Source of the DNA: Paramesorhizobium leguminum
GTDB taxonomy: Bacteria; Pseudomonadota; Alphaproteobacteria; Rhizobiales; Rhizobiaceae
NCBI RefSeq assembly: GCF_003217235.1
Contig: NZ_QJTF01000017.1
Coordinates: forward strand, 1 to 64,000
Length of the DNA stretch: 64,000 nucleotides
Direction of reading: 5' to 3'
Each line of letters starts with the position of its first letter. Position 1 is the first letter of the stretch. A program made the position numbers and the translations under genes. This document shows positions 7,518 to 58,822 of the stretch, piece by piece. The notes under the pieces are model-generated. The model made no database searches and was not told where the DNA came from. It saw only the letters and a program-made list of their open reading frames with translations.

Positions 7518-8969
7518 TTAAATATGAAGCTGCCCTTTGAAAGCTCGTTCGCAGACAGCCGCTGCTGCGAGGACGCGCTGATCGGCGCCGCGAGGTCCGA
7601 TAATCTGCAAGCCGATGGGCAGATTGTCCGCAGAAAAGCCGCAGGGGATCGAGCAGGCGGGCTGCTGGCTCAGATTAAGCGGAAAGCTGAAGCCGGCCCA
7701 TTCGGTCCACCGCTTTAGATTTGAGCCAGGCGGAACCTCCATCCCGATGGCGAAGGCCGTGATGGCGGTCGCCGGCGAGATGAGGAGATCGAAGGATTCG
7801 AAAAGACGTTCCATTGCCGCGCCAAACTCGGCGCGGCGAACGCTCGCGGCAACGTAGTCGGCGGCTGAGATATGACTTCCAATCTCTGCAATCTCTAACA
7901 GTCCCGGATCCATCCCGCTCCGCTGCGTGGCGGTGAGGGTACGCAAGCGGGTTGCCGCGCCAGCAAACCACAAGGTGTGAAACAGATCGAGCAGTCCGCC
8001 CAGGGGCAGCTCCACCGCTTCGACACGGGCGCCGAGCAATTCGATCGTCGCCGCGGCTTTCTGCACTTGAGCGGCGACTTGGGGCGAAACGCGACCGGCC
8101 GGCGGCGTGGTCCATAGTCCAATGCGGCGGCCATTCAGGCTCGGTTGAGCCTCCATCCTCGCGGGCTTGAAGGCGACCGGGCTCTGATGCCAATCGCGCA
8201 AGTCCCGACCGGACAAAATGTCGAGCATGGCGATAGCATCTTCGACGCGTCTGGCCATTGGCCCGATATGGGAGACGGTGCCAAAGGCGCTTGGTGGAAA
8301 GGCCGGGACGCGCCCGAAGGTAGGTTTGTGGCCAACGATGCCCGTGAATGATGCTGGAATGCGGATCGAGCCGCCACCGTCGCTGCCCAGATGCAACACC
8401 CCCGCACCCGTAGCCGCCGCCACCGCGGCGCCGCCCGACGATCCGCCCGGCGTCAGGTCCGGGTTCCAGGGATTGCGCGTCTTACCGAACAATGGCCCGT
8501 CGGTTACCGCCTTCCAGCCGAACTCCGGCGTGGTGGTCTGCCCGATAAGAACCGCTCCGGCCCGGCGCAGAAGCTGGACCGACGGGGCATCGAGCGGCTG
8601 TGGCGAGGCATCGGTCGTGCGGCTGCCTAGACGGGACGGCCAGCCCTCGGTCGTCACGATGTCCTTGATCGTGGTCGGAACACCATCGAGTGGTCCAGCC
8701 GGGTTGCCGGCCCGCCATCGCGCCTCTGACGCCTTGGCCGCGGACAGCGCCCCGTCATGATCGATCAGGGTGAAGGCATTGAGAGCGGTGTTTACCGCGG
8801 CTGCCCTGTCTAAAGCCGCCAGGGTTACCGCAACAGGCGACAGGATCGCATCCCTGTAGGCATTCACCAATTGTTCGGCACTGAGGTCACACAGCTCTGG
8901 CACATCGACCAATGAAGCTGCTTCGGGCACCTTCAGCGGCGCCTCACCGTGCGAACCAATTTGATGCAT
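7518..8969 (-). CDS. Amidase-signature family hydrolase
   Basis: A 483-aa amidase-signature enzyme, a family that hydrolyses amide bonds with a Ser-cis-Ser-Lys triad. The lysine is in VPTTIKDI, the signature TPGGSSGGAAVAAATG supplies the cis-serine, and the nucleophile segment is GSDGGGSIRIPA. No signal peptide is evident, so it is cytoplasmic. The substrate cannot be inferred; the neighbours include no gatB/gatC, so it is not the GatCAB subunit. A LysR regulator lies upstream on the same strand and may control it. Confidence 0.9.
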   Translation of the reverse strand: MHQIGSHGEAPLKVPEAASLVDVPELCDLSAEQLVNAYRDAILSPVAVTLAALDRAAAVNTALNAFTLIDHDGALSAAKASEARWRAGNPAGPLDGVPTTIKDIVTTEGWPSRLGSRTTDASPQPLDAPSVQLLRRAGAVLIGQTTTPEFGWKAVTDGPLFGKTRNPWNPDLTPGGSSGGAAVAAATGAGVLHLGSDGGGSIRIPASFTGIVGHKPTFGRVPAFPPSAFGTVSHIGPMARRVEDAIAMLDILSGRDLRDWHQSPVAFKPARMEAQPSLNGRRIGLWTTPPAGRVSPQVAAQVQKAAATIELLGARVEAVELPLGGLLDLFHTLWFAGAATRLRTLTATQRSGMDPGLLEIAEIGSHISAADYVAASVRRAEFGAAMERLFESFDLLISPATAITAFAIGMEVPPGSNLKRWTEWAGFSFPLNLSQQPACSIPCGFSADNLPIGLQIIGPRGADQRVLAAAAVCERAFKGQLHI

Positions 8970-9077
8970 AAGCCTCTGTCGCCTCAGTACCTTCGATATG
9001 CGATTTCATTTGATCGCTGTTCGAAAGACTACCGACATTCCCCGCATCGCATAGTTCATTTTCTGGAGTTTATTGTT

Positions 9078-10052
9078 CTATTTCATAATTTGAGATGGCT
9101 CTATACCTGCCCGCGCTGGAGTCTCATAGGCTGTCTCATAGGCTGATGGCAGTCCGTGCGCATCGAAAAATTCCCGCACGACCTGGATGAAGAAGCGCGC
9201 GTATTCCGGCTTTTGCGCCCCATAAGCATCCGCGACCACAAGAGTTGGTTGCGGCAGATCGTCGATCAACGGGCGGCGCACCACACCGCCGGCATCTTCC
9301 TCTGTTGCCAATAGCGGGCGCATGTTCAGAACCGAAACACCGAAACCGGCTGCAACTGCCCGGCTCATGGTCGGATAGGAGCGGGTGCGGAAGCCGACCC
9401 TGGGACAAATCGCCACCGTATCGAACAATGCCAGGAGATAAGTCACGGTGTGCGGCAGGTCGAGCAGCACCAGCGGGCGCTCCGCAATATCGCTGAGCGA
9501 TAAAGCATCCCGTGCCTCCAACTCATCGCCGCACGCAATCATGACGTGCGGCGGAACCCGGCAGATTGGCGTGATATTGCCGTTGAAGCTTGGACCGATA
9601 TCATAGGCAACCACGAAATCGACCGTTTTAGAGACAAGCCAGCGGTGCAATTGTGTCTGATCGCCCTCAAAGAGGGCAACATCGACCGTGCCCACGCGAT
9701 TGGTGTAGGCCCGGATCAAGTCCGGCATGAAAAGAGAGCCGAACGGCTCGAAACAACCGATCTTGATCTCGGCAGCATTTTTGCCGCTGAGTGATGAAAT
9801 CGACTTTGCGAACTCGGCTTCGGCGGCGAGCAACCCTTGAGCCGCACTGACAAAGCGGTCACCGGCAGGCGTCGTGGTAACGCCGCGCGATGGCCGCCGT
9901 TCGAACAACCGCGCGTCCATATCTCCTTCCGCAAGATTGATGGCGGCGATGATCGAAGACTGAGAAACATTGAGAGCCTCGGCGGCGGCAAGAATACTTC
10001 CAAGTCTCGCAACTTCGCTAATATATTTGACCTGCCGCATGGAAAGTTTCAT
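9078..10052 (-). CDS. LysR-family transcriptional regulator
   Basis: A 324-aa LysR regulator. The winged helix-turn-helix spans about residues 1-62 (LGSILAAAEALNVSQSSI, LFERRPSRGV) and the rest is a periplasmic-binding-protein-like effector domain. It precedes the amidase in the same direction with a gap of about 110 bases, so the amidase is the likely target. The effector is unknown. The recognition helix is typical; the C-terminal tail (YETAYETPARAG) has a short repeated ETAYETP-like segment of no known meaning. Confidence 0.9.
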   Translation of the reverse strand: MKLSMRQVKYISEVARLGSILAAAEALNVSQSSIIAAINLAEGDMDARLFERRPSRGVTTTPAGDRFVSAAQGLLAAEAEFAKSISSLSGKNAAEIKIGCFEPFGSLFMPDLIRAYTNRVGTVDVALFEGDQTQLHRWLVSKTVDFVVAYDIGPSFNGNITPICRVPPHVMIACGDELEARDALSLSDIAERPLVLLDLPHTVTYLLALFDTVAICPRVGFRTRSYPTMSRAVAAGFGVSVLNMRPLLATEEDAGGVVRRPLIDDLPQPTLVVADAYGAQKPEYARFFIQVVREFFDAHGLPSAYETAYETPARAGIEPSQIMK

Positions 10053-10182
10053 CAGTCATTCCTGCCTTTCAGGAAAAGGCGCAATCTGGAAATATAACAG
10101 GAAATGCATAATTCACCAACATAAAATGTATTATGAAGCTGGCACGTTCGCGATGTAAACATTCGCGACAAGGTTCGAATGA

Positions 10183-10789
10183 TTGGGAACATTCGTGCGA
10201 GCAATCCGCGTGCCATTCGGCATAAGTGCGACACATCGTGCTTTTGCGCGGCGTAGCGAGGAGTTGTTCGCGGAGCTTGAGCAATGGGCGGGACCGATGC
10301 CGGCCAGAAAGCTTCCGGTGATGTGGGTTGTCAGCTCCTCGCAGCACGCGGACTTCAGCAGGCAGTTGACCAGCGGCATGACCCGTATCGCGACAAGAGA
10401 TGAGGTTGAGTCACTTCGCGGCGGAACTCTCGAACTGGTTCTGGGCACGGATGATACGGTGCTGGTCGATGATGCCGCCTGGTGCGGCGGCATTGTCCCC
10501 CGCCTGCTTCTCGCTTCGCCGGGCCGCTCGCGCGGTGGAAGACTGGTTGGAGCGCGCCGCCGATTATTGCGACACTCCGGACGGAGCCTATTGGTGGCAG
10601 AAGAGCTTTGCTCTGTTGGCTTATCCGCTGATGCCGCGCCTTGGTGAAAGCCTATGGCAGGAACTCGGCCATAACCATCAGCCGACGATGACGGCTTTCC
10701 TTGACCAGCCGTCGCCTCATCGGCGTGACGTCGAACGTGTCCATATCCAAATCTCCCGCTGGGAGATACTCGCGGCCATCGCAGCATAG
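10183..10789 (+). pseudogene. Decayed gene, C-terminus resembling class I aminoacyl-tRNA synthetases
   Basis: Two frames share the coding signal. From TTG 10183 one frame reads plausibly (AFARRSEELFAELEQW) to about 10395-10550. Another frame then continues (RAARAVEDWLERAADYC, FALLAYPLMPRLGESLW) to the TAG at 10789. The last part looks like the anticodon-binding tail of a methionyl-tRNA synthetase-like protein. A frameshift in the middle and lack of any catalytic HIGH/KMSKS region imply a degenerate fragment. It ends 14 bases before the MFS gene. The family call is weak and read by eye. Confidence 0.35.
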
Positions 10790-10803
10790 AGGAGCACGAT
10801 CTC

Positions 10804-12021
10804 ATGATTTTTTCAGCCCAGACTGCCCCATCCTCTCATGCCGGCTCGCGCGCGATTGTCTATCTCGCTTGCTTGTGCATCGCGGCCGCTTATGGCCTGT
10901 TCTTTACTTTGCCGCTTTATGTCGAAGCGCTCGGTGGAAACGAGGCCATCGTCGGCAACATCTTGTTCGCCGGTGCTTTCGGTACGCTCCTGTGCGTCGG
11001 CTTCGCCAATCAGATCATGGACTTCTGGAAGCCGCATATTGTCGTTGCGGCCGGCGCGCTGTGCTATGCGCTCGGCGCCACGGTCTTTGCCTTCACCCAC
11101 GAGATTTCGGCGTTGTTTTATCTAGCCGGCTTCCTGCTCGGCGCCGGGTGGGGGCTGGCCTTCACCATCGGTCCGATCATGCTATCGGGGTTGGTGACCG
11201 ACGCCAACCGGGCGGTGCTGTTCAGTGTGCTGTCGGCGTTCAATATGCTCGGCATGGGCCTTGCTCCGGTCGCTGCGCATGGGCTGCTCGCGGCCGGGGT
11301 GCAGCATTGGGTTATCTTCGCAGGCGCAATGGTGCTGGCGATCGCGAGCGCCATACTCTTCTACATCGCGGGACGAAGCCTGTCCCATATCGCTGCACCG
11401 CAGAGCGAATCGCTGCCGGGCGGAGAAGCCGCGGCGTTGCATCGGATCATCCGCTCGCCGGCAAAATACCCGTTGATCATGGTGTTTCTCGGAGCCTGCG
11501 TTTTCAGCTCGATGGTCAATTTCCAGACAACGTTCGCAGCCTCCAAGGGATTGAACTATTCGATTTTCTACATCTCCTACACCGCTGCGGTCATCGGGGG
11601 ACGTTTCCTCATTAGCGGGTTCGTCAACCGGAAAGAGCCGATGAAGACCACCATCGTCTTGCTGGTGTTGATGTGCCTGTCGCTGATCATGTTCGCCGTG
11701 ATGCCTGCGGGCCCCGCATTCTATGCCGCGAGTTCCCTGTTGCTCGGTCTCAGCTACGGCCTGGTCTATCCGCTCATCCAGGCCCAGGCGGTCAACGCCT
11801 CCGACGAAAACTTGCGCTCCCGCACTCTGGTCTATTTCTCGCTGTTCTATTTCGTTGGCGTGTTCGGCTTTCCCCTGCTTGGGGGGCGGATTATCGTCGA
11901 AGGCGGATATCAAGCGCTGCTGTACGCCTTGCTGATCATGGGTGTTTTGGAACTTCTGGTGGCGGTGTGGCGCTATCTGGCGGCACAACGAGCCGCCGTC
12001 CCGTCGCGTAATTCCGCCTGA
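10804..12021 (+). CDS. MFS transporter
   Basis: A 405-aa inner-membrane protein with about 12 hydrophobic segments, the layout of the major facilitator superfamily. The N-terminal half has GNEAIVGNILFAGAFG, the C-terminal half GLSYGLVYPLIQAQAV. GAGGAG lies 9 bases before the ATG. Its upstream neighbour is a decayed synthetase-like gene, from which it may once have been co-transcribed. A perfect stem-loop follows its stop. The substrate is not recognisable. Confidence 0.85.
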   Translation: MIFSAQTAPSSHAGSRAIVYLACLCIAAAYGLFFTLPLYVEALGGNEAIVGNILFAGAFGTLLCVGFANQIMDFWKPHIVVAAGALCYALGATVFAFTHEISALFYLAGFLLGAGWGLAFTIGPIMLSGLVTDANRAVLFSVLSAFNMLGMGLAPVAAHGLLAAGVQHWVIFAGAMVLAIASAILFYIAGRSLSHIAAPQSESLPGGEAAALHRIIRSPAKYPLIMVFLGACVFSSMVNFQTTFAASKGLNYSIFYISYTAAVIGGRFLISGFVNRKEPMKTTIVLLVLMCLSLIMFAVMPAGPAFYAASSLLLGLSYGLVYPLIQAQAVNASDENLRSRTLVYFSLFYFVGVFGFPLLGGRIIVEGGYQALLYALLIMGVLELLVAVWRYLAAQRAAVPSRNSA

Positions 12022-42103: not shown

Positions 42104-43165
42104 CTAAATCCGTCTTATTGCAGGGCCCAAGCGGGGCAGGTTCGAGGGGGCCGGCCCAAGGGTTTCGCCCTCGACCGGATCGCAGGTAAGAAGAATCTGG
42201 TCGCCGGCGCTGCCGGTCTCGATGCGGTTCACCAGCATGGCGGTCGCCTGCCGTCCCATCTCCTCGCGCGGGATCGTGTAGGAGGTGAAGCGCACAGGGC
42301 TGCGACTGGCGCGGATATGGCTGCCAAGCACGATCATGGAAAAATCCCGCGGCACGGAAAGCCCGCGTTCGCGTGCGAGCGCTTCGACGCGGACCGCATC
42401 CGCCAGTTCGATGAAGAATGCCGCCGTAGCGCCACTGCCAAGGATCGCATCGAGTATCTCGCCAGCCGGCCGGTTGACGTCATTTACATGGAGGACAAGC
42501 TCGGTCCCCTCCCCCAGCGCGGAGGCGAAGCCCCGCCAGCGGTCGACGATGGATTCGGCAGGGCCATCCGGGCCGATATAGGCGAGCCTCATATGACCGA
42601 GCGCCCTCCCCTTCTCGACAAGCTGCCGCGTGGCCGCGGCATAATCGCCGCCGACATAAGGAACGGGTCCGCCGGCATCCTCACGGCGGCCGATTGCTAC
42701 GAATGGATAATCCTCCGCCACCAGCCGAGCCAGTTCCTTGCGGTCGAATTCGCGGCCCAGCACCAGGCAACCATCGGCGATCCTCAGCCGGTTGCCCTCG
42801 GAAAAGATCTTGCGGTTGCCACCCACGCCTGCGCTGGTCAGGAGCAGGAGATCGTAATTCTGCTGCTGCGCCGCTTCCTCTATGCCGAGCAGGAAAGGCG
42901 CGAAGAAATCGGCCTGCTCGCTCGGGAATGCCGGTTCGTAGGTGAACACGCCCAGAATCCGGTTCAGGCCCTTCGCCATGCGCCTTGCGATCGGATCGGC
43001 GACATATCCCGTTGTGCGAATGACGCGCTGGACCCGTTCCCGGGTTTCCTGCGGAATACGCGCGAGAGTCGCCGGCGCGCCATTCAGAACAAGCGAGACC
43101 GTCGCCTGACTGACACCGGCCAGTTTCGCAATATCATTCTGAGTGAGCCGCCTGTTCCCTGCCAC
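42104..43165 (-). CDS. LacI-family transcriptional regulator
   Basis: A 353-aa LacI/GalR regulator. The helix-turn-helix is TQNDIAKLAGVSQATVSLVL, the hinge TTGYVADPIARRMAKGL, then a periplasmic-binding-like sensor domain. The start is GTG 43165 with GGGGAGGAG 6 bases upstream; the codon at 43189 is less likely. It is followed by the FAD oxidoreductase gene after 13 bases, so it is co-transcribed with the operon it controls. Two palindromic operators lie just upstream of its start. Confidence 0.9.
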   Translation of the reverse strand: MAGNRRLTQNDIAKLAGVSQATVSLVLNGAPATLARIPQETRERVQRVIRTTGYVADPIARRMAKGLNRILGVFTYEPAFPSEQADFFAPFLLGIEEAAQQQNYDLLLLTSAGVGGNRKIFSEGNRLRIADGCLVLGREFDRKELARLVAEDYPFVAIGRREDAGGPVPYVGGDYAAATRQLVEKGRALGHMRLAYIGPDGPAESIVDRWRGFASALGEGTELVLHVNDVNRPAGEILDAILGSGATAAFFIELADAVRVEALARERGLSVPRDFSMIVLGSHIRASRSPVRFTSYTIPREEMGRQATAMLVNRIETGSAGDQILLTCDPVEGETLGPAPSNLPRLGPAIRRI

Positions 43166-51080: not shown

Positions 51081-51227
51081 CGAGCGGAATCGGGGTAGGG
51101 AAAGCATAGGGATTTGTTAACCCTTATTTCCTTGCTGTTTTGGGCGAATCGGACATATCTTTTCATCTGCGGAGATTTTCGCATTCTTGGAATTTTTCCG
51201 CAGCTAGTGTCCAGATGGAATATATTG

Positions 51228-52442
51228 ATGACAACCGTCGCCCAAAAGCGAATCGACGCCGAACCGGACGAATTGAAGACGCTGCTCCAGCGCCATTCGG
51301 CGGCACTGGCTGCGCAGCTGCAGGCGCATCATCTCAGCATCTATCCGCCGAGCGCCGAGAAGGGAATCCGCCACTTTTCTCCAGCCGAAACAGCCAAGCT
51401 CATTGGCGTAACGGAAGGATATCTTCGGCAGGTCGCAGCTGAAATACCGGATGTCTCGACCATCTCGTCCGGCGGTAGACGGTCTTATTCCGTGGAAGCC
51501 ATCCATGAATTCCGGAAGCATCTCCATGCCGGGGCCCGGGGCAATCGCCGTTATCTGCCGTGGCGCAATGACAATGAGCAGCTTCAGGTCGTTTCGGTCA
51601 TGAACTTCAAGGGAGGCTCAGGCAAGACCACAACGTCAGCGCATCTGGCGCAGTATCTTGCGCTGCGGGGTTACCGCGTGCTGGCAATCGATCTCGATCC
51701 GCAGGCCAGTCTCTCGGCCCTGTTCGGCCATCAGCCGGAACTGGACGTAGGGCCCAACGAGACCCTGTACGGTGCGATCCGGTATGATGCCGAGAAACGT
51801 CCGATCTCCGAAATCGTTCGTGCCACCTATATTCCGGACATGCATCTCATCCCCGGGAATCTGGAGCTTATGGAGTTCGAACACGATACGCCAAAGGCGC
51901 TGCTCAACCGCGCGCCGGGCGATACCCTATTCTTTGCCCGCATCGGCCAGGCGCTTGCCCAAATCCAAAAGCTTTATGATGTTGTCGTCATCGACTGTCC
52001 GCCGCAACTGGGCTTTCTGACCATGTCGGCGCTCACGGCGGCCACCTCCGTCCTGATCACGGTTCATCCGCAGATGCTTGACGTCATGTCGATGAACCAG
52101 TTCCTGGCGATGACCAGCGATCTTCTCGAAGAGATCGGCAGGGCAGGGGCTTCCTCGCAATATTCGTGGATGAAATATCTCATCACACGCTTCGAGCCGA
52201 GTGATGGTCCGCAGAACCAGATGGTTGCGTTTCTCCGCTCGATTTTCGGGGATCACGTTCTTAATCATCCGATGCTCAAGAGCACGGCTATCTCCGACGC
52301 GGGCCTGACAAATCAGACAATCTTCGAAGTGGACCGCGGCCAGTTCACGCGCGCGACGTACGATCGTGCGCTTGAATCGATGGAAAATGTCAATGGCGAG
52401 ATTGAAGGCCTTATCAAGAAGGCCTGGGGCAGGATCGCATGA
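51228..52442 (+). CDS. repA: Plasmid partitioning protein RepA (ParA ATPase)
   Basis: A 404-aa ParA-type partition ATPase of the repABC family. The deviant Walker A is FKGGSGKTTTS (about residues 126-136), Walker B region VVIDCPPQLGFLTM and the late LSMNQ-like part DVMSMNQFLAMTSDL. The N-terminal part (SPAETAKLIGVTEGYLRQVA) is a helix-turn-helix-like region used for autorepression. ATG 51228 gives normal RepA length; longer in-frame starts are rejected. It overlaps repB at ATGA. With RepB and parS it distributes replicon copies. Confidence 0.95.
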   Translation: MTTVAQKRIDAEPDELKTLLQRHSAALAAQLQAHHLSIYPPSAEKGIRHFSPAETAKLIGVTEGYLRQVAAEIPDVSTISSGGRRSYSVEAIHEFRKHLHAGARGNRRYLPWRNDNEQLQVVSVMNFKGGSGKTTTSAHLAQYLALRGYRVLAIDLDPQASLSALFGHQPELDVGPNETLYGAIRYDAEKRPISEIVRATYIPDMHLIPGNLELMEFEHDTPKALLNRAPGDTLFFARIGQALAQIQKLYDVVVIDCPPQLGFLTMSALTAATSVLITVHPQMLDVMSMNQFLAMTSDLLEEIGRAGASSQYSWMKYLITRFEPSDGPQNQMVAFLRSIFGDHVLNHPMLKSTAISDAGLTNQTIFEVDRGQFTRATYDRALESMENVNGEIEGLIKKAWGRIA

Positions 52443-53473
52443 GCCGGAAGCAAATCTTCGCAAATCTGACGCCGCCGGCAGAAAGCGCCGAAGCAGCTTC
52501 GGCTAGTTCCCAAGATGCTCTCGCACGGCGTCCGTCCCGCATTCGGCCGCTACTGGGCTCGCCCGATTTGGTGGATGATGCCGGCAGGTCCCCCGTCGGT
52601 GCCCTTGGCCGGTCCCTGGGTGAATTGAGCGAGCGCTCGCGCCGTGCCGATGAGATCGAGGAAAAGCTGCGCGCCGGCCAAGCCGTCGTTGAGCTTGATC
52701 CTGCGTCTATCGACCCGTCTTTCATTCCAGATCGCATGCTTTCCGACGACGAACCATTCCGGTCATTCGTCGAATCCATTCGCGAGCAAGGCCAGCAGGT
52801 GCCTATCCTCGTGCGCCCGCACCCTCAAAAGACGGGCGCGTATCAGGTTGCTTTCGGACACCGGCGGCTGCGGGCTGCACTGGAGCTGGATATCGGGGTC
52901 AAAGCAATCGTTCGCAATCTCACCGACCAGGAACTGGTCGTAGCCCAGGGGCAGGAGAACAATGAGAGGCAGGACCTCTCCTACATCGAGAAAGTTCGGT
53001 TCGCCCAGAAGCTGGCGGAGCGCTTTTCACGTGATGTCGTCATGGCGGCTCTCGCGATTTATAAAAGTGACTTATCCAACATGCTTGCTGTTGCGGTTAA
53101 GATCCCAACCGAGCTGGTCGATGCAATTGGCCCAGCCCATGGTATCGGCCGGCGCAATTGGATGGCGCTTGCTGAGGTGTTGACGGCAGGCAAGGAGCGG
53201 ATGGAAATGGCCTTAAGCGTTGCTACCAAGCCCGAAGTCGCAATGCTCCCCTCGAAGGAACGATTCGAGGCGGTGGCTCGGGCATTGACTGAAAAGGCGT
53301 CCGTGCGAAACGCCAACGCTGTCCTTCTGCCGGGAGGGCAGGAAATCGCCCAGATTGCGCAGACAAAACAGAAAATCACGCTCACGATCGACCGGCGCAC
53401 GTCTCCGGATTTCGCGGACTTCGTGATGAACGAGCTTCCTCGCCTCTACGCCGAGCACACAAAATCGCGGTAG
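52439..53473 (+). CDS. repB: Plasmid partitioning protein RepB (ParB)
   Basis: A 344-aa ParB-type protein. The N-terminal RepB/ParB box is VPILVRPHPQKTGAYQVAFG with HRRLRAALELD; the NERQDLSYIEKVRFAQKLAE segment and central helix-turn-helix (KSDLSNMLAVAVKIP) bind parS. The start overlaps repA (ATGA), so it is co-translated. The 196-base gap after it encodes the ctRNA that controls repC. Confidence 0.95.
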   Translation: MSRKQIFANLTPPAESAEAASASSQDALARRPSRIRPLLGSPDLVDDAGRSPVGALGRSLGELSERSRRADEIEEKLRAGQAVVELDPASIDPSFIPDRMLSDDEPFRSFVESIREQGQQVPILVRPHPQKTGAYQVAFGHRRLRAALELDIGVKAIVRNLTDQELVVAQGQENNERQDLSYIEKVRFAQKLAERFSRDVVMAALAIYKSDLSNMLAVAVKIPTELVDAIGPAHGIGRRNWMALAEVLTAGKERMEMALSVATKPEVAMLPSKERFEAVARALTEKASVRNANAVLLPGGQEIAQIAQTKQKITLTIDRRTSPDFADFVMNELPRLYAEHTKSR

Positions 53474-53525
53474 GGGCAAGGGATATATGAAGTAAACAGG
53501 AGAACTGAATCCGCAAAAGGAAAAA

Positions 53526-53601
53526 GGCCCCCGAAACGACGTCCGGAAGCCCTTCTCAAGTGTGGTAACGAGAGAATCGCATTTCCGCGAATCACTGTCA
53601 A
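53526..53601 (-). ncRNA. Counter-transcribed RNA controlling repC (ctRNA/incA)
   Basis: On the minus strand TTGACA (53601-53596) and GATTCT (53578-53573) are 17 bases apart. Transcription would start near 53566 and end in a 10-bp GC-rich stem (about 53526-53551, arms GGCTTCCG and CGGGGGCC) followed by a T-run. This is the location and form of repABC ctRNAs (like ctRNA of p42d), which base-pair with the repC leader to limit replication. The whole repB-repC gap (53474-53669) is therefore explained. Confidence 0.8.
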
Positions 53602-53669
53602 GAGTCCTTGTGACTTGAGCGCCGTTTCGGCGAGCGGATTTCTTTTGCCTTAACCATAGGTGAAGAAAA

Positions 53670-54956
53670 ATGCAGACGCATATATCAACGACGCCCTTTG
53701 GGCGGCGGCGGGTGTTGCTTGGCCAGATTTCGAGCCAGAAGGCCGCTCGGGAAATGCCAAGGGACGCCTCTGTCCAGAAATGGCATGTCTTCCAGCATAT
53801 CCGCGAGGCGCGGGATCTGCTCGGCGCGACCGACCGCGCGCTGGCGATCCTTAACGCCCTGCTGTCGTTCCATCCCGAGACCACGCTGACCGGTGATGGC
53901 GAACTAGTGGTCTGGCCGTCGAACGAGCTTCTGAGCGCGCGCGCCAATGGCATGCCGGCGACGACGCTGCGGCGGCATCTGGCGGTGCTTGTCGATTGCG
54001 GCCTCATCATCCGGCGCGACAGCCCCAACGGCAAGCGCTTCGCCCGCAAGGGGAGGGGAGGGGAGATCGAGCAGGCTTATGGCTTCGACCTGTCACCGCT
54101 TGTCGCCCGTGCGGCGGAGTTCAGGGATTTGGCCGAAGCGGTGCAGACGGAGAAAAAGGCTTTTCGCGTTTCGAAGGAGAAACTGACGCTCATTCGCCGC
54201 GACATCGTCAAAATGATCGACGTCGGCATTGAGGAAGGCGTTCCGGCGCCATGGGGCCGGATGCAGATCGTTTATCGCCAGATCCTGGCCAAGCTGCCGC
54301 GCTCCGCGCCGAAACAGGTGATCGACGCGGTCTGCGAGGAGCTGCAGCTGCTGTGGCAGGAAATCCGCGACACATTGGAATCCTTCACGGATTCTCAGAA
54401 TCAGGACGGCAATGAGTCCCATTTTGGGCGCCATATACAGAATTCAAAACCAGACTCTTATTCTGAATCTGAATATGGCTCAGGAATAAAACAAGAAGCG
54501 GGCGGCACCGTTGCGGAAAGCGACAACATTCGCGCCCTGCCCAAACGAGAGTTGCCCTTGGGGATCGTACTGGACGCCTGCCCAGGCTTGGCCGAGCTTG
54601 CCGAAGGCGGCGCCATCCGGCACTGGCGCGAATTTCTGGCCGCGGCGGAAAAGGCTAGGCCGATGCTGGGGATCAGCCCGAGCGCCTGGCGCGAGGCACG
54701 AGAGGTGATGGGCGAGCAGCAAGCGGCGATCACGCTGGCGGCGATTTATGAACGGTCCGATCAGATCAACAATGCCGGCGGTTACTTACGCAGCCTGACC
54801 GAGCGCGCCAGGCAAGGCAAATTCTCCACCTGGCCGATGATCATGGCCCTGCTGAGAAACAAGCTCGACGCGAAGAAAATGGCGGGCGAGGGGGGCGGTC
54901 GCAGGCTGCAGGTCTCCGAAGCACTGCTGAACAGTCTCAGAAAGCCGGGATCGTGA
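53670..54956 (+). CDS. repC: Replication initiator RepC
   Basis: A 428-aa RepC initiator. The N-terminal part (HISTTPFGRRRVLLGQI, VQKWHVFQHIREARDLLG, WPSNELLSARANGMPATTLR) is a winged-helix replication domain; the C-terminus has INNAGGYLRSLTERARQGKF typical of the family. An AT-rich stretch inside the gene (about 54430-54490) is where the origin of repABC replicons usually lies. It follows repB after the ctRNA gap. It converges with the ureohydrolase gene. Confidence 0.95.
   Translation: MQTHISTTPFGRRRVLLGQISSQKAAREMPRDASVQKWHVFQHIREARDLLGATDRALAILNALLSFHPETTLTGDGELVVWPSNELLSARANGMPATTLRRHLAVLVDCGLIIRRDSPNGKRFARKGRGGEIEQAYGFDLSPLVARAAEFRDLAEAVQTEKKAFRVSKEKLTLIRRDIVKMIDVGIEEGVPAPWGRMQIVYRQILAKLPRSAPKQVIDAVCEELQLLWQEIRDTLESFTDSQNQDGNESHFGRHIQNSKPDSYSESEYGSGIKQEAGGTVAESDNIRALPKRELPLGIVLDACPGLAELAEGGAIRHWREFLAAAEKARPMLGISPSAWREAREVMGEQQAAITLAAIYERSDQINNAGGYLRSLTERARQGKFSTWPMIMALLRNKLDAKKMAGEGGGRRLQVSEALLNSLRKPGS
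54430..54490. other. AT-rich stretch in repC, probable oriV location
   Basis: About 60 bases rich in A and T (encoding NSKPDSYSESEYGSGIKQ) stand out from the GC-rich surroundings inside repC. In repABC replicons the origin lies within repC at such an AT-rich segment. The exact limits are not defined. Confidence 0.5.
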
Positions 54957-56105: not shown

Positions 56106-57239
56106 TTAAAGCCCCGACGCCTTGGTGAGATTGGTGCGGAAACGGTCGCGCCGCCGCTGATATTTGCGCGTCATTTCTGCCGAAGCGTGGCCGAGCTGTT
56201 TTTGCACGTAGCGCTCCTCGATGTCGGCCGATGAGGCCAGGCCGGCGCGCAGCGAGTGCCCCGAGAACAGCAGCGCGCGCTCCGCTTCCGGCAGATCGGA
56301 GCGGACGCCGGCGGCCAGCGCGGTCTGCTTGACCAGGCGGGCGACATGCTTGTCGGCGAGCCGTTCGGCGGCGACGGTTGTGTTGTCCCTGTATATGCGG
56401 CGGAACAGCGGGCCGCGCGCAATCCGACCGTATTTGATCCACAGATCCAGCGCGGCGACCGGGCAGGTTTGCTCGGACGTGCCGAGGCCGACCTCGACCT
56501 GGCGCCAGCCCGTCTTGCCGCGCAGCGTCACCAGCACGCCCTGACCGGGAAAAATCTCGATCCAGCCGGCGCCGGCGCCGGGGTTGCCATCGGGATGGTC
56601 GTCGCGGACGACGTCGAGGCCGACGATCTCGGAACGGCGCAGGCCGCTGGCGAAGCCGAGCAGCAGGATGGCGCGGTCGCGCAGGCCGCGCAGATCATGA
56701 CCGAGCGTGCCGACCATCGCCTTGATGTCGTCGCCCAGCACAGCCTCTTTCTGGCGCGGCGGCTTGGCGTGCTTGCGGCGGATGCCGGCGAGCACCGTCG
56801 CAATATGCCGGTCGGCGCGGTCCATCGGTGCGCCGCGCTGGGTGAAGTTCCAGGCGAGGCCGGAGAGGCGCCGTTCGATCGTCGCGACCGCGAGGGGAGG
56901 GATGCCGCGCTTGCGCTCGCCGGCAACGGTGCCTGCGGCACAGGCGCCGATATAGAGCCCGATGACTTGGCTCGACGGCGGCAGTGGCTCGAAACCTTCC
57001 CGGCGGCACCAGGCGGTGAAATGCCGCCAGTCCTTGGCATAGGCGCCGCGGGTGTTTTCGGAACTGGCGGCCTTGGCGTAGGCGGTCGCGGTCTCGACCA
57101 GGGCTTGCAGCCGCGCCGGGACACGGGGTGCGGCGCCCATACTCATGACCATATCGACGATATCCGGCAGTGCGCCTTCGCTATGGTCGGTGGGCGGCTT
57201 TCGGTCGATTTGGTGTGGATTTTCCGGGGGCTTTTGCAT
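56106..57239 (-). CDS. Tyrosine recombinase (integrase)
   Basis: A 377-aa tyrosine recombinase. The SAM-like core-binding domain (about 45-165) has STRGAYAKD-type helices and VATIERRLSGLAWN. The catalytic set is complete: R201 in SGLRRSEIVGL, K242 in LRGKTGWRQV, H328 and R331 in GHSLRAG, H351 in QLGHAS and Y360 in TRKYQRR. It could cut and exchange DNA at an inverted-repeat site. Such a 13-7-13 site lies 20 bases upstream of its start. Next to it is a broken DUF1403 gene, often seen beside such recombinases. Confidence 0.93.
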   Translation of the reverse strand: MQKPPENPHQIDRKPPTDHSEGALPDIVDMVMSMGAAPRVPARLQALVETATAYAKAASSENTRGAYAKDWRHFTAWCRREGFEPLPPSSQVIGLYIGACAAGTVAGERKRGIPPLAVATIERRLSGLAWNFTQRGAPMDRADRHIATVLAGIRRKHAKPPRQKEAVLGDDIKAMVGTLGHDLRGLRDRAILLLGFASGLRRSEIVGLDVVRDDHPDGNPGAGAGWIEIFPGQGVLVTLRGKTGWRQVEVGLGTSEQTCPVAALDLWIKYGRIARGPLFRRIYRDNTTVAAERLADKHVARLVKQTALAAGVRSDLPEAERALLFSGHSLRAGLASSADIEERYVQKQLGHASAEMTRKYQRRRDRFRTNLTKASGL

Positions 57240-57258
57240 GGCTTGCCAAGCTAGCCGC

Positions 57259-57291
57259 TTATGTCCGATAAGGCAAGGTTATCGGACATAA
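57259..57291. other. Lox-like inverted repeat beside the recombinase gene
   Basis: TTATGTCCGATAA (57259-57271) and TTATCGGACATAA (57279-57291) are perfect 13-bp inverted arms with a 7-base core (ggcaagg). This is the architecture of a tyrosine-recombinase crossover site and lies 20 bases before the recombinase ATG. It may be its recombination site, its operator, or both. I saw no second full copy in the window. Confidence 0.6.
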
Positions 57292-57365
57292 AAGCGACAC
57301 GACAAGCGCGGCGGTTATCTGGGAAGCTCGATCAATAAAGCGCCGTATCGCGGTGGCGGCTCGGC

Positions 57366-57855
57366 ATGGATTCGCCTGCATTTCGCCCCCCCGGCAACCG
57401 CCTTAATCCTGTCGTCGCTGCCCGGTTGGGCGCTGCCGCGCGGTAATAATCTGACCGAGCCCGACGCCGCCTTTGCCGCCGGCATCGCCCTGAAATCGCT
57501 GGCCGATCTGGTGCGCGCCGAGCCCGCTTGGGCCGGCTGCTGGCGCGCCCGACAAGCCCTGAAATGTGCTGTTGTGGCGGCGTGATTGATGGGCCGGAAC
57601 GAGGACGAAAACGCGCTGCGCAACGCCGTGCTGCTGACCGCAGCCGGCGACGATCCGGGCCCGGCCGGAAAGGTGTTTTTGGCCTGCAAAAGGGTTCGCC
57701 AATCGAAAACCAGCGTTCTCGTCGCCGTGCCCGCCACCGCTCCCGGTTGCAATCGTTCCCGCTGGGCCACCAGCCGGCTGTTCGAGCGCCTGGAAGGCCG
57801 CGGCGCCGTGCGGGAACTCTCCGGCCGAACCTCGTTTCGGATTTATGGATTATAA
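57366..57855 (+). pseudogene. Degenerate DUF1403-family gene
   Basis: From ATG 57366 the first codons (MDSPAFRPPGNRLNPVVAA) match the start of the DUF1403 family. A frame change near 57415 leads into LPGWALPRG, then EPDAAFAAGIALKSLADLVR and WAGCWRARQALKCAVVAA in the second frame. An in-frame TGA then splits it from MGRNEDENALRNAVLLTAAG, and the middle of the protein is missing before a C-terminal LFERLEGRGAVRELSGRTSF. At least one frameshift, one nonsense codon and one deletion are present. The family is unknown in function and often adjoins plasmid recombinases. Confidence 0.7.
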
Positions 57856-57966: not shown

Positions 57967-58290
57967 GTGAGCTATGTCATAGCTTTTAAAGCGGGCCGTA
58001 GAGGGGCGGCGAAGGACATCTCGCTGGGGGCGCTGGCGGCCAAGGCCGGACTGGAACGCCGTACTTTGTTGCGCCGGTTTCGCAAGGCAACAGGCATGAC
58101 GACATCGGAATATGGTCAGCGGATACGTGTAGGCAGAGCCTGCGAGCTTTTACAGTTCAGCGCCAAATCGGTGGAACAGATCGCTTGGGAGACCGGCTAT
58201 GGCAATCCCGGCGCGTTCCGCAAGATATTTGCCCGGTTCGTCGGCTTGACTCCCAGTGAATATCGGCGGCGTTTCGCCGTAACATCCTGA
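57967..58290 (+). pseudogene. AraC-family regulator fragment (C-terminal HTH only)
   Basis: The frame from GTG 57967 encodes 107 aa, almost wholly the C-terminal double helix-turn-helix of a GlxA-like AraC regulator: AAKAGLERRTLLRRFRKATG, IAWETGYGNPGAFRKIFARF and VGLTPSEYRRRF. The N-terminal DJ-1/PfpI-like sensor domain (about 200 aa) is missing. It looks like a truncated gene left by rearrangement; a functional short regulator cannot be excluded. Confidence 0.75.
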
Positions 58291-58326
58291 GGGGAGCGTC
58301 ATTTCGCCGAGAATTAGCCTTTCGCT

Positions 58327-58343
58327 CTTAAGCTGGGCTTAAG
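58327..58343 (+). promoter_or_regulatory. CTTAAG direct repeats upstream of the L,D-transpeptidase fragment
   Basis: CTTAAG occurs at 58327-58332 and 58338-58343, an 11-base period that suits OmpR-family regulator dimers. The same arrangement lies at 58823-58839 before the OmpR-type regulator fragment. Confidence 0.5.
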
Positions 58344-58392
58344 CTGAGCCTTGTGCGCTGAGGGAATTCCAAAAGCACAAGGCCCACGAACA

Positions 58393-58617
58393 TTGAGCAA
58401 ACACCATATACCCTCCATCCCCAGGCGTACTTTTCTCCTCGGCGCCAGCGCCTTGACGCTGTCAGGCTGCGTGTCGGCCATGCAACCCACCACGACCGCA
58501 TTGACATCGAAGCCCATTCGTCCAGTCAGGCCACCGATGTATGCCGCGATGCCCGACGAACGGTTCCCGATCCCGACGGTCGACGTGTCCCAGGTCGACG
58601 AGAAATGGTGGCGCCAT
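58393..58617 (+). pseudogene. Truncated L,D-transpeptidase (YkuD-type) N-terminus
   Basis: From TTG 58393 the frame has a signal or lipoprotein region RRTFLLGASALTLSGCVSA, with LSGC as a possible lipobox, then MYAAMPDERFPIPTVDVSQV and DEKWWR. This is the N-terminus of the secreted ErfK/YbiS/YcfS/YnhG group. The catalytic domain is absent: at about 58610 the sequence changes to the reverse strand of a response regulator. The product cannot crosslink peptidoglycan. Confidence 0.7.
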
Positions 58618-58783
58618 CGGGCAGCATCAGATCGAGCACGAGCGCGTCGAAATCGTGATTCTTGAGAACGGCGTTCGCCTCCTCGCAGGTTTCAACCGCG
58701 TCCGCCGTGAATCCGCCTATGGCCAAGCCTACCTTGAGACCGTCCCGCAGGACGGCATCATCCTCAACAATAAGTATCCGCAT
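58610..58783 (-). pseudogene. Truncated OmpR-type response regulator (receiver only)
   Basis: Leftward from ATG 58783 (GTG 58792 also possible) the frame encodes MRILIVEDDAVLRDGL and DFDALVLDLMLPDG, the first 58 residues of an OmpR-type receiver, including the acidic pair and the phospho-acceptor aspartate in LVLDLML. It then breaks at the junction with the L,D-transpeptidase fragment. The DNA-binding domain is missing. Confidence 0.75.
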
Positions 58784-58822
58784 CTCGCTCACCTCATCGA
58801 CCGTTCCTCCTTGTTCATGCGG

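Follow-up and report, generated by a model that had tools for sequence, protein, structure and literature searches.

A perfect lox-like inverted repeat immediately upstream of a tyrosine recombinase gene is probably the crossover site of that enzyme, serving the everyday resolution of multimers of the repABC plasmid that carries them. Both lie in the window, the whole stretch of DNA analysed (64,000 nt of contig NZ_QJTF01000017.1, GCF_003217235.1, from Paramesorhizobium leguminum). The crossover role is strongly supported by sequence comparison, with the switch points of a natural exchange falling inside a homologous site; multimer resolution is the best reading of its main role. The pairing of recombinase and site that an earlier note had read from these letters is thereby upheld, and for the repABC plasmids of Alphaproteobacteria, a large class to which Ti plasmids belong, the pair supplies a candidate site of crossover together with its enzyme.

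The site (57259–57291, minus strand) is formed by perfect 13-bp inverted arms (57259–57271 and 57279–57291) about a 7-base spacer, reading TTATGTCCGATAA-GGCAAGG-TTATCGGACATAA on the plus strand and TTATGTCCGATAA-CCTTGCC-TTATCGGACATAA on the minus strand; the asymmetric core CCTTGCC occupies 57272–57278 (minus strand). Its edge lies 19 bases from the recombinase ATG; both the 13-7-13 layout and the position directly upstream stand as the earlier note had given them. The likeness to a Cre/FLP-type design drawn there holds for the inverted arms and asymmetric core but not for the spacer, which is 7 bases between perfect arms rather than the 8 of the Cre/lox type. No other perfect inverted repeat (arms of 13, spacer of 3–20) occurs in the 64-kb window, and 20 random sequences of equal length, drawn from a first-order Markov model, contained none of this type. 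A genome-wide search for the arm, proposed at the outset, finds it exactly at this one place in the genome of origin; allowing one mismatch adds two lone half-sites, and the full site occurs once.

The recombinase (377 aa; 56106–57239, minus strand) matches PF00589 (E = 4.9e-10; 39.9 bits against a cut-off of 27.1). Five residues, R201, H328, R331, H351 and Y360, are invariant across 17 aligned recombinases and K242 is almost so; we take these six to be the catalytic set of tyrosine recombinases (R-K-HxxR-H-Y), in agreement with the claim of a full set. Profile and residues together place the protein in the tyrosine recombinase family. Six comparisons with relatives give dN of 0.09–0.16, dS of 0.51–0.80 and dN/dS of 0.16–0.20, values by which the gene is under purifying selection. 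A profile built from these 17 recombinases hits structures of the XerA, Cre and XerD types (E = 4e-6 to 2e-5), Cre being one of four distinct solved sequences matched (E = 9.7e-6). Identity with XerC or XerD was rejected, the best scores being 42.8 and 34.2 bits against curated NCBIfam cut-offs of 335.15 and 329.6, respectively. No further copy of the recombinase is found in its own genome at E = 0.001. An AlphaFold model of the enzyme was poor (mean pLDDT 55.4) and was set aside.

The pair sits on a repABC replicon (repA–repC at 51114–54956, plus strand), differentiated into repA (51114–52442; TIGR03453, 631 bits; the start is that of the listed open reading frame, with the profile match running from residue 56), repB (52439–53473; TIGR03454, 363 bits) and repC (53670–54956; NF040974, 532 bits). 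An arginase-family gene lies between repABC and the recombinase. On the opposite side of the site is a decayed DUF1403 gene (57366–57855, plus strand), recognizable as two Pfam pieces (57409–57714, which contains one TGA, and 57724–57852) that lack the middle of the profile (positions 112–269); we place the start at 57366, at an ATG whose frame differs from that of the first piece. No ScpB gene follows among the open reading frames of the window. With a decayed DUF1403 and no ScpB, the system in the window may be partly disabled. A full-length DUF1403–ScpB pair is present elsewhere in the same genome (contig C33, 19600–21236; L124:7601–9237), downstream of a gene reading as hisD and with no recombinase or site next to it in view, the contig stopping about 190 bp past ScpB. 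Further out in the window, 57967–58792 holds a short AraC-type C-terminal reading frame and, on the opposite strand, a short frame that we read as resembling the start of a response regulator, which suggests that the DNA past the module is a scrap region.

Scanning genome contigs for relatives of the recombinase turned up 55 loci, of which 52 were tested (L053, L058 and L059, partial matches, were left out), a site being called at a score of at least 17 of 26 and no more than 300 bp upstream. By this measure a site is found upstream in 40 of the 52 loci, a set to which a single R. altiplani genome contributes seven near-identical loci, and in 29 of the 40 it lies 51–52 bp from the match start. 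Shuffled upstream regions gave a site in 0 of 52; on this comparison, the repeat in the window is thus a non-chance feature. Core positions 3–4 are TT in all 40 site-bearing relatives, the core again being asymmetric, and the innermost three arm positions pair in 50 of 50 loci (the outermost in 17 of 50); the true core may span 6, 7 or 8 bases. The 12 loci under the threshold count against the main reading. Two of them (L034 and L041) hold weaker sites, L036 shows a sequence resembling the site at another place in the locus, and in a plasmid of the L019 species the site adjoins DUF1403 and is separated from the recombinase by other genes; no site was seen in the remaining below-threshold loci. 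Among 247 genomes of the window's family, 36 hold the site at up to two mismatches and none holds a reversed control pattern. Recombinase relatives (E ≤ 1e-5) occur in 2,030 plasmid records, many of them distant, since 1,507 fall below 60% identity.

In these relatives, DUF1403 and ScpB adjoin the site and diverge from the recombinase, L102 being an exception. DUF1403 is present in 36 of 55 related loci and ScpB sequence in 39 (E = 1e-5, counted by eye), some of the ScpB sequence being partial or in truncated loci; DUF1403 is mostly accompanied by ScpB. The description of the pair as simple therefore does not survive, most relatives having this operon together with a second conserved inverted repeat. 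VapBC or other toxin–antitoxin genes sometimes lie between site and recombinase, joined in L101 by a TniABQ element, and there the site still adjoins DUF1403.

A natural exchange in Agrobacterium tumefaciens 1D1609 locates recombination at the homologous site. Two plasmids of this strain, pTi1D1609 and pAt1D1609a, hold reciprocal parts of a pTi15955-like plasmid. With an octopine-type Ti module as the query, the 99.9% match to pTi1D1609 begins one base ahead of the site and does not extend outward of it. Compared with pTi15955, pTi1D1609 is 99.88% identical over 7,976 bp, up to and through the site; past it, about half of the next 100 bp are alike, and similarity then drops to chance level. 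On the opposite side it is pAt1D1609a that follows pTi15955, at 99.79% and 99.96% over 32 kb. The three plasmids have 25 bp in common (GTCCGATAATCTTGCATTATCGGAC), centred on the core TCTTGCA, and base-by-base comparison places both switch points within it: on one flank only pAt1D1609a equals pTi15955, and on the other only pTi1D1609 does. The sequences beside the switch are homologous but diverged: the second repeat in pTi1D1609 remains in that plasmid's own form, and the recombinase gene of pAt1D1609a differs from that of the Ti plasmid (78% alike). The comparison thus puts a crossover within the site, in one event of one strain. A further plasmid, pLN1-233332, has the layout of the other parent. 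On the left flank it agrees with pTi1D1609 at 90 of 90 bp (96.4% over 138 bp including the site), and on the recombinase side it is 85.6% like pAt1D1609a.

The segment moved to pAt1D1609a is 34 kb long and includes virA (NZ_CP026927.1, about 194455–232200; NZ_CP026926.1, about 7919–11255). It is bounded by the lox-like site and, at the far end, by a Tn3-type element present as two 100% identical copies of 3,219 bp, one per plasmid; the flanking matches at this boundary overlap by 7 bp (pTi15955, about 42246–42252). Intramolecular replicative transposition splits a circle and leaves an element copy in each product, with a 5-bp target duplication. Fusion at the site followed by such a transposition would leave the pattern seen in 1D1609, which points to whole plasmids fused through one site each rather than to a mobile segment with a site at either end. 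The suggestion that the pair moves its adjoining segment is right in that a segment did move in 1D1609, but the pattern speaks for whole-plasmid fusion. Reports on 1D1609 place virA, with virK and virH2 or with virJ, on another plasmid, and their passages on this displacement give no mechanism (PMC6629968, PMC8756689); the words recombinase, integrase and co-integrat are absent from the main text of PMC8756689. Exchange at the site can account for the position of virA off the Ti plasmid, and it offers a mechanism for plasmid mosaics more widely, of which virA and its neighbours on the accessory plasmid of 1D1609 are one case. An older mosaic is visible in L099, which is 79–98% alike L117/L118 on the DUF1403 side and 49–69% on the recombinase side, with the L099 megablast matches stopping two bases short of the site end. 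As the site itself is conserved, such older mosaics place the change only near it.

We infer that the recombinase binds the arms, cleaves the site and perhaps regulates itself. Two monomers would occupy the two arms, two sites would synapse and strands would be exchanged across the asymmetric core, converting multimers of a repABC plasmid to monomers before partition. Different plasmids with matching cores could be fused by the same reaction, and a later event that splits the fusion would leave their segments exchanged.

A 65-nt consensus, used as a BLAST query, matches 115 places across 114 plasmid records. Of twelve plasmid records picked for holding a site, 11 have exactly one, which suits the multimer resolution suggested by the earlier note, short of proving it. 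The twelfth, A. tumefaciens F2 p2, has two, one given by pattern search and the second shown by BLAST and confirmed by a follow-up check (AFSD01000008.1, 42855–42887 and 265286–265318; L168 and L100). Both have the core TCTTGCA and point the same way, each lying within a complete module of this 402-kb plasmid, which has two MOBQ relaxases and comes from a whole-genome shotgun record; F2 p2 is possibly an unresolved fusion of two module-bearing plasmids, or an assembly effect. Its retention of two same-core direct sites counts against active resolution, as an active system should split it unless it is misassembled. At the level of genomes, the site is found in 27 of 29 searched (the genome of origin and 28 reached via related loci), at a single place in 24 of them; G005 and G012 have three places each and G008 seven, the three cores of G005 all being different. 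In eight multi-site genomes of the family, the cores are all identical in four, identical in two of three sites in one and all different in three, a tally made by eye on draft genomes whose sites may share one replicon. A rule of core avoidance between sites of one genome was rejected, given the four of eight with identical cores, and this lack of separation also speaks against the main reading. Seven R. altiplani contigs (L013, L014, L015, L016, L018, L038 and L047) share an identical stretch, 4.2 kb or longer, that includes recombinase and site, which is either real multi-copy or an assembly effect; as a breakpoint test these copies are uninformative, being identical over all 4,214 bp shared.

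The same reaction could instead have plasmid fusion for transfer as its main role, a non-transmissible replicon joining a conjugative one, as proposed for IntA; we regard this as unlikely, if the most serious of the alternatives. It has a precedent in IntA/attA–attD and in the similar inner arms at the p42a and p42d sites, and it fits the 1D1609 exchange, the resemblance of F2 p2 to a fusion awaiting resolution, and the cores that sites of one genome often have in common. The two sites of F2 p2 make the resolution reading slightly weaker and this one slightly stronger. Set against it, 11 of 12 plasmids hold one site with a recombinase of their own, and 9 of 12 are typed conjugative, so they need no transfer partner.

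That the repeat might be a mere operator for transcription of the recombinase and DUF1403 is very improbable. The site does lie between divergent genes, mostly at a fixed distance, and by our own reading a minus-strand TTGCCT-17-TAGCTT could pass for a promoter across the core and one arm; a consensus promoter scan finds none over the site, however, and in L094 and L101 the site is kept beside DUF1403 though other genes part it from the recombinase. The reciprocal switch points of 1D1609, inside the site, argue that it is not merely an operator, the alternative the earlier note had named as refuting its proposal. Least probable of all is an attachment site of a mobile element carrying the recombinase: tyrosine recombinases of the phage integrase type often adjoin att sites, but neither the genome of origin nor 11 of 12 plasmids has a second site that would delimit a segment, and repC, wherever in view (L091, L092, L094, L095, L098 and L118), is always on the recombinase side in the same gene order.

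A second inverted repeat accompanies the crossover site on its DUF1403 side. It is located 18–54 bp past the site and has 8-bp arms with 21 bp between them (for example, TGCGGTTT with AAACCGCA, and GGCGCTTT with AAAGCGCC); the window has a version at 57309–57345 (minus strand; arms 57338–57345 and 57309–57316, 8 bp each, 21 bp between), pairing at 7 of 8 arm positions. These arms covary, with 23 two-sided changes against a maximum of 17 in 2,000 column shuffles (52 rows minus L119 and L078, the best centre picked beforehand and the shuffles ignoring relatedness). The arms of the lox-like site give 25 two-sided changes, where the shuffles average 16 and reach 27 at most; this signal is not clear over the shuffles because these arms hardly vary. 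The second repeat is possibly an accessory or operator site.

DUF1403 belongs to family PF07183 (L007:1872–2873, minus strand), and its AlphaFold model (mean pLDDT 84.7) matches Fic proteins across most of its length. The best match is 3zcn (Z = 18.2, r.m.s.d. 4.8 over 287 residues); the top 13 rows are all Fic proteins with Z of at least 11.7, after which Z falls to 5.7, and the best Foldseek E-value is 1.1e-3. Winged-helix proteins match the C-terminal part, and the protein is thus predicted to adopt a Fic fold with a C-terminal winged helix. The Fic motif is HPFx(D/E)GNGR; at this position DUF1403 has PGDDxGPxG (read by eye), which is why the enzyme is probably altered or inactive. The place of the gene before scpB had prompted the idea of a kleisin (ScpA), which found no support, as the best folds are Fic, with no kleisin among the best 50 rows of each of two structure searches. 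The word DUF1403 was not found in the open-licence literature searched.

A DNA-binding Fic-like protein and ScpB beside a recombination site suggest an accessory role there, which links two genes without a known plasmid role to a recombination site. A more specific proposal, which we offer tentatively, is that the site is composite: DUF1403, bound at the second repeat, would form an accessory complex with plasmid-borne ScpB that couples the lox-like recombinase to condensin-type plasmid segregation and favours resolving over fusing. Were this true, it would constitute a monomerization system gated by a chromosome-organizing protein.

Other elements cluster around the module. TniA–TniB–TniQ genes (Tn402/Tn5053-like) are near it in L092, L093 (where TniA- and TniQ-type profiles were confirmed), L094, L101 (where they directly adjoin the site), L117 and L118, and L100 has a similar unnamed gene set, perhaps of the same type. 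Of 18 plasmid regions viewed, 6 thus have TniQ-type genes close to the module, with L100 a possible seventh. The opening lines of published abstracts term Tn5053-family elements res site hunters. Such targeting was rejected as evidence for a resolution site, since common inheritance may also lie behind the 6 of 18. A second integrase, often with VapBC, is seen at L091:17292–19077, L093:11742–13570, L117:1683–2831 and L122:39297–41114, and may represent an IntA-type system alongside.

Several known systems share features with the pair. In IntA/att of R. etli p42a and p42d, too, a tyrosine recombinase encoded on a repABC plasmid adjoins a short site made of inverted repeats, and the inner arms CCGATAA-N7-TTATCGG are common to the window site and the p42a and p42d sites. 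The two plasmids share a 53-bp stretch, 88.7% identical, next to the p42a integrase. We take the p42a site to be attA, the adjoining gene intA and the p42d site attD; this match is consistent with the attA/attD description reportedly given by Brom et al. in 2004. Over 316 columns the window recombinase shares just 29% identity with the integrase adjoining the p42a site, against orthology with IntA, and the core there (GTACTGC) is unlike that of the window; no DUF1403 is annotated in 20 kb around the p42a site. Elsewhere on p42a (NC_007762.1, 142213–143266) is a decayed recombinase of the window type, 57–62% alike in two main pieces, with a site-like sequence in front. In the R. etli account, as far as its relevant passages go, IntA-dependent attA × attD recombination may fuse plasmids, and a few of the fusions resolve into recombinant plasmids (PMC3224233).

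S. meliloti pSmeLPU88b is similar in that a Cre-like tyrosine recombinase adjoins repABC and is discussed for dimer resolution, the recombinase and a toxin–antitoxin block lying downstream of repABC (PMC10194956). A crossover site is not mentioned in that paper's section on dimer resolution, nor does the term "condensation" appear in its main text. These two related systems, as portrayed in the sections cited, qualify the earlier note's phrase "previously undescribed", although no description of a window-type site appears in the titles and abstract openings of the best matches from open-licence literature searches.

XerCD with dif and cer-type sites uses the same recombinase family and has a role in monomerization; the window system differs in its plasmid-encoded recombinase and near-symmetric arms. 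Accessory sites are a feature of cer. Cre/loxP of phage P1 resembles the window pair in having one recombinase, two inverted arms and an asymmetric core, and differs in spacer length, loxP having 8 bases and the window site 7. It keeps a low-copy plasmid monomeric, according to the part of the source that treats it (PMC2409434). On these comparisons, the system works like a Cre/lox or an IntA/att pair, set apart from Cre/loxP by the partner genes of its relatives and by their second conserved repeat.
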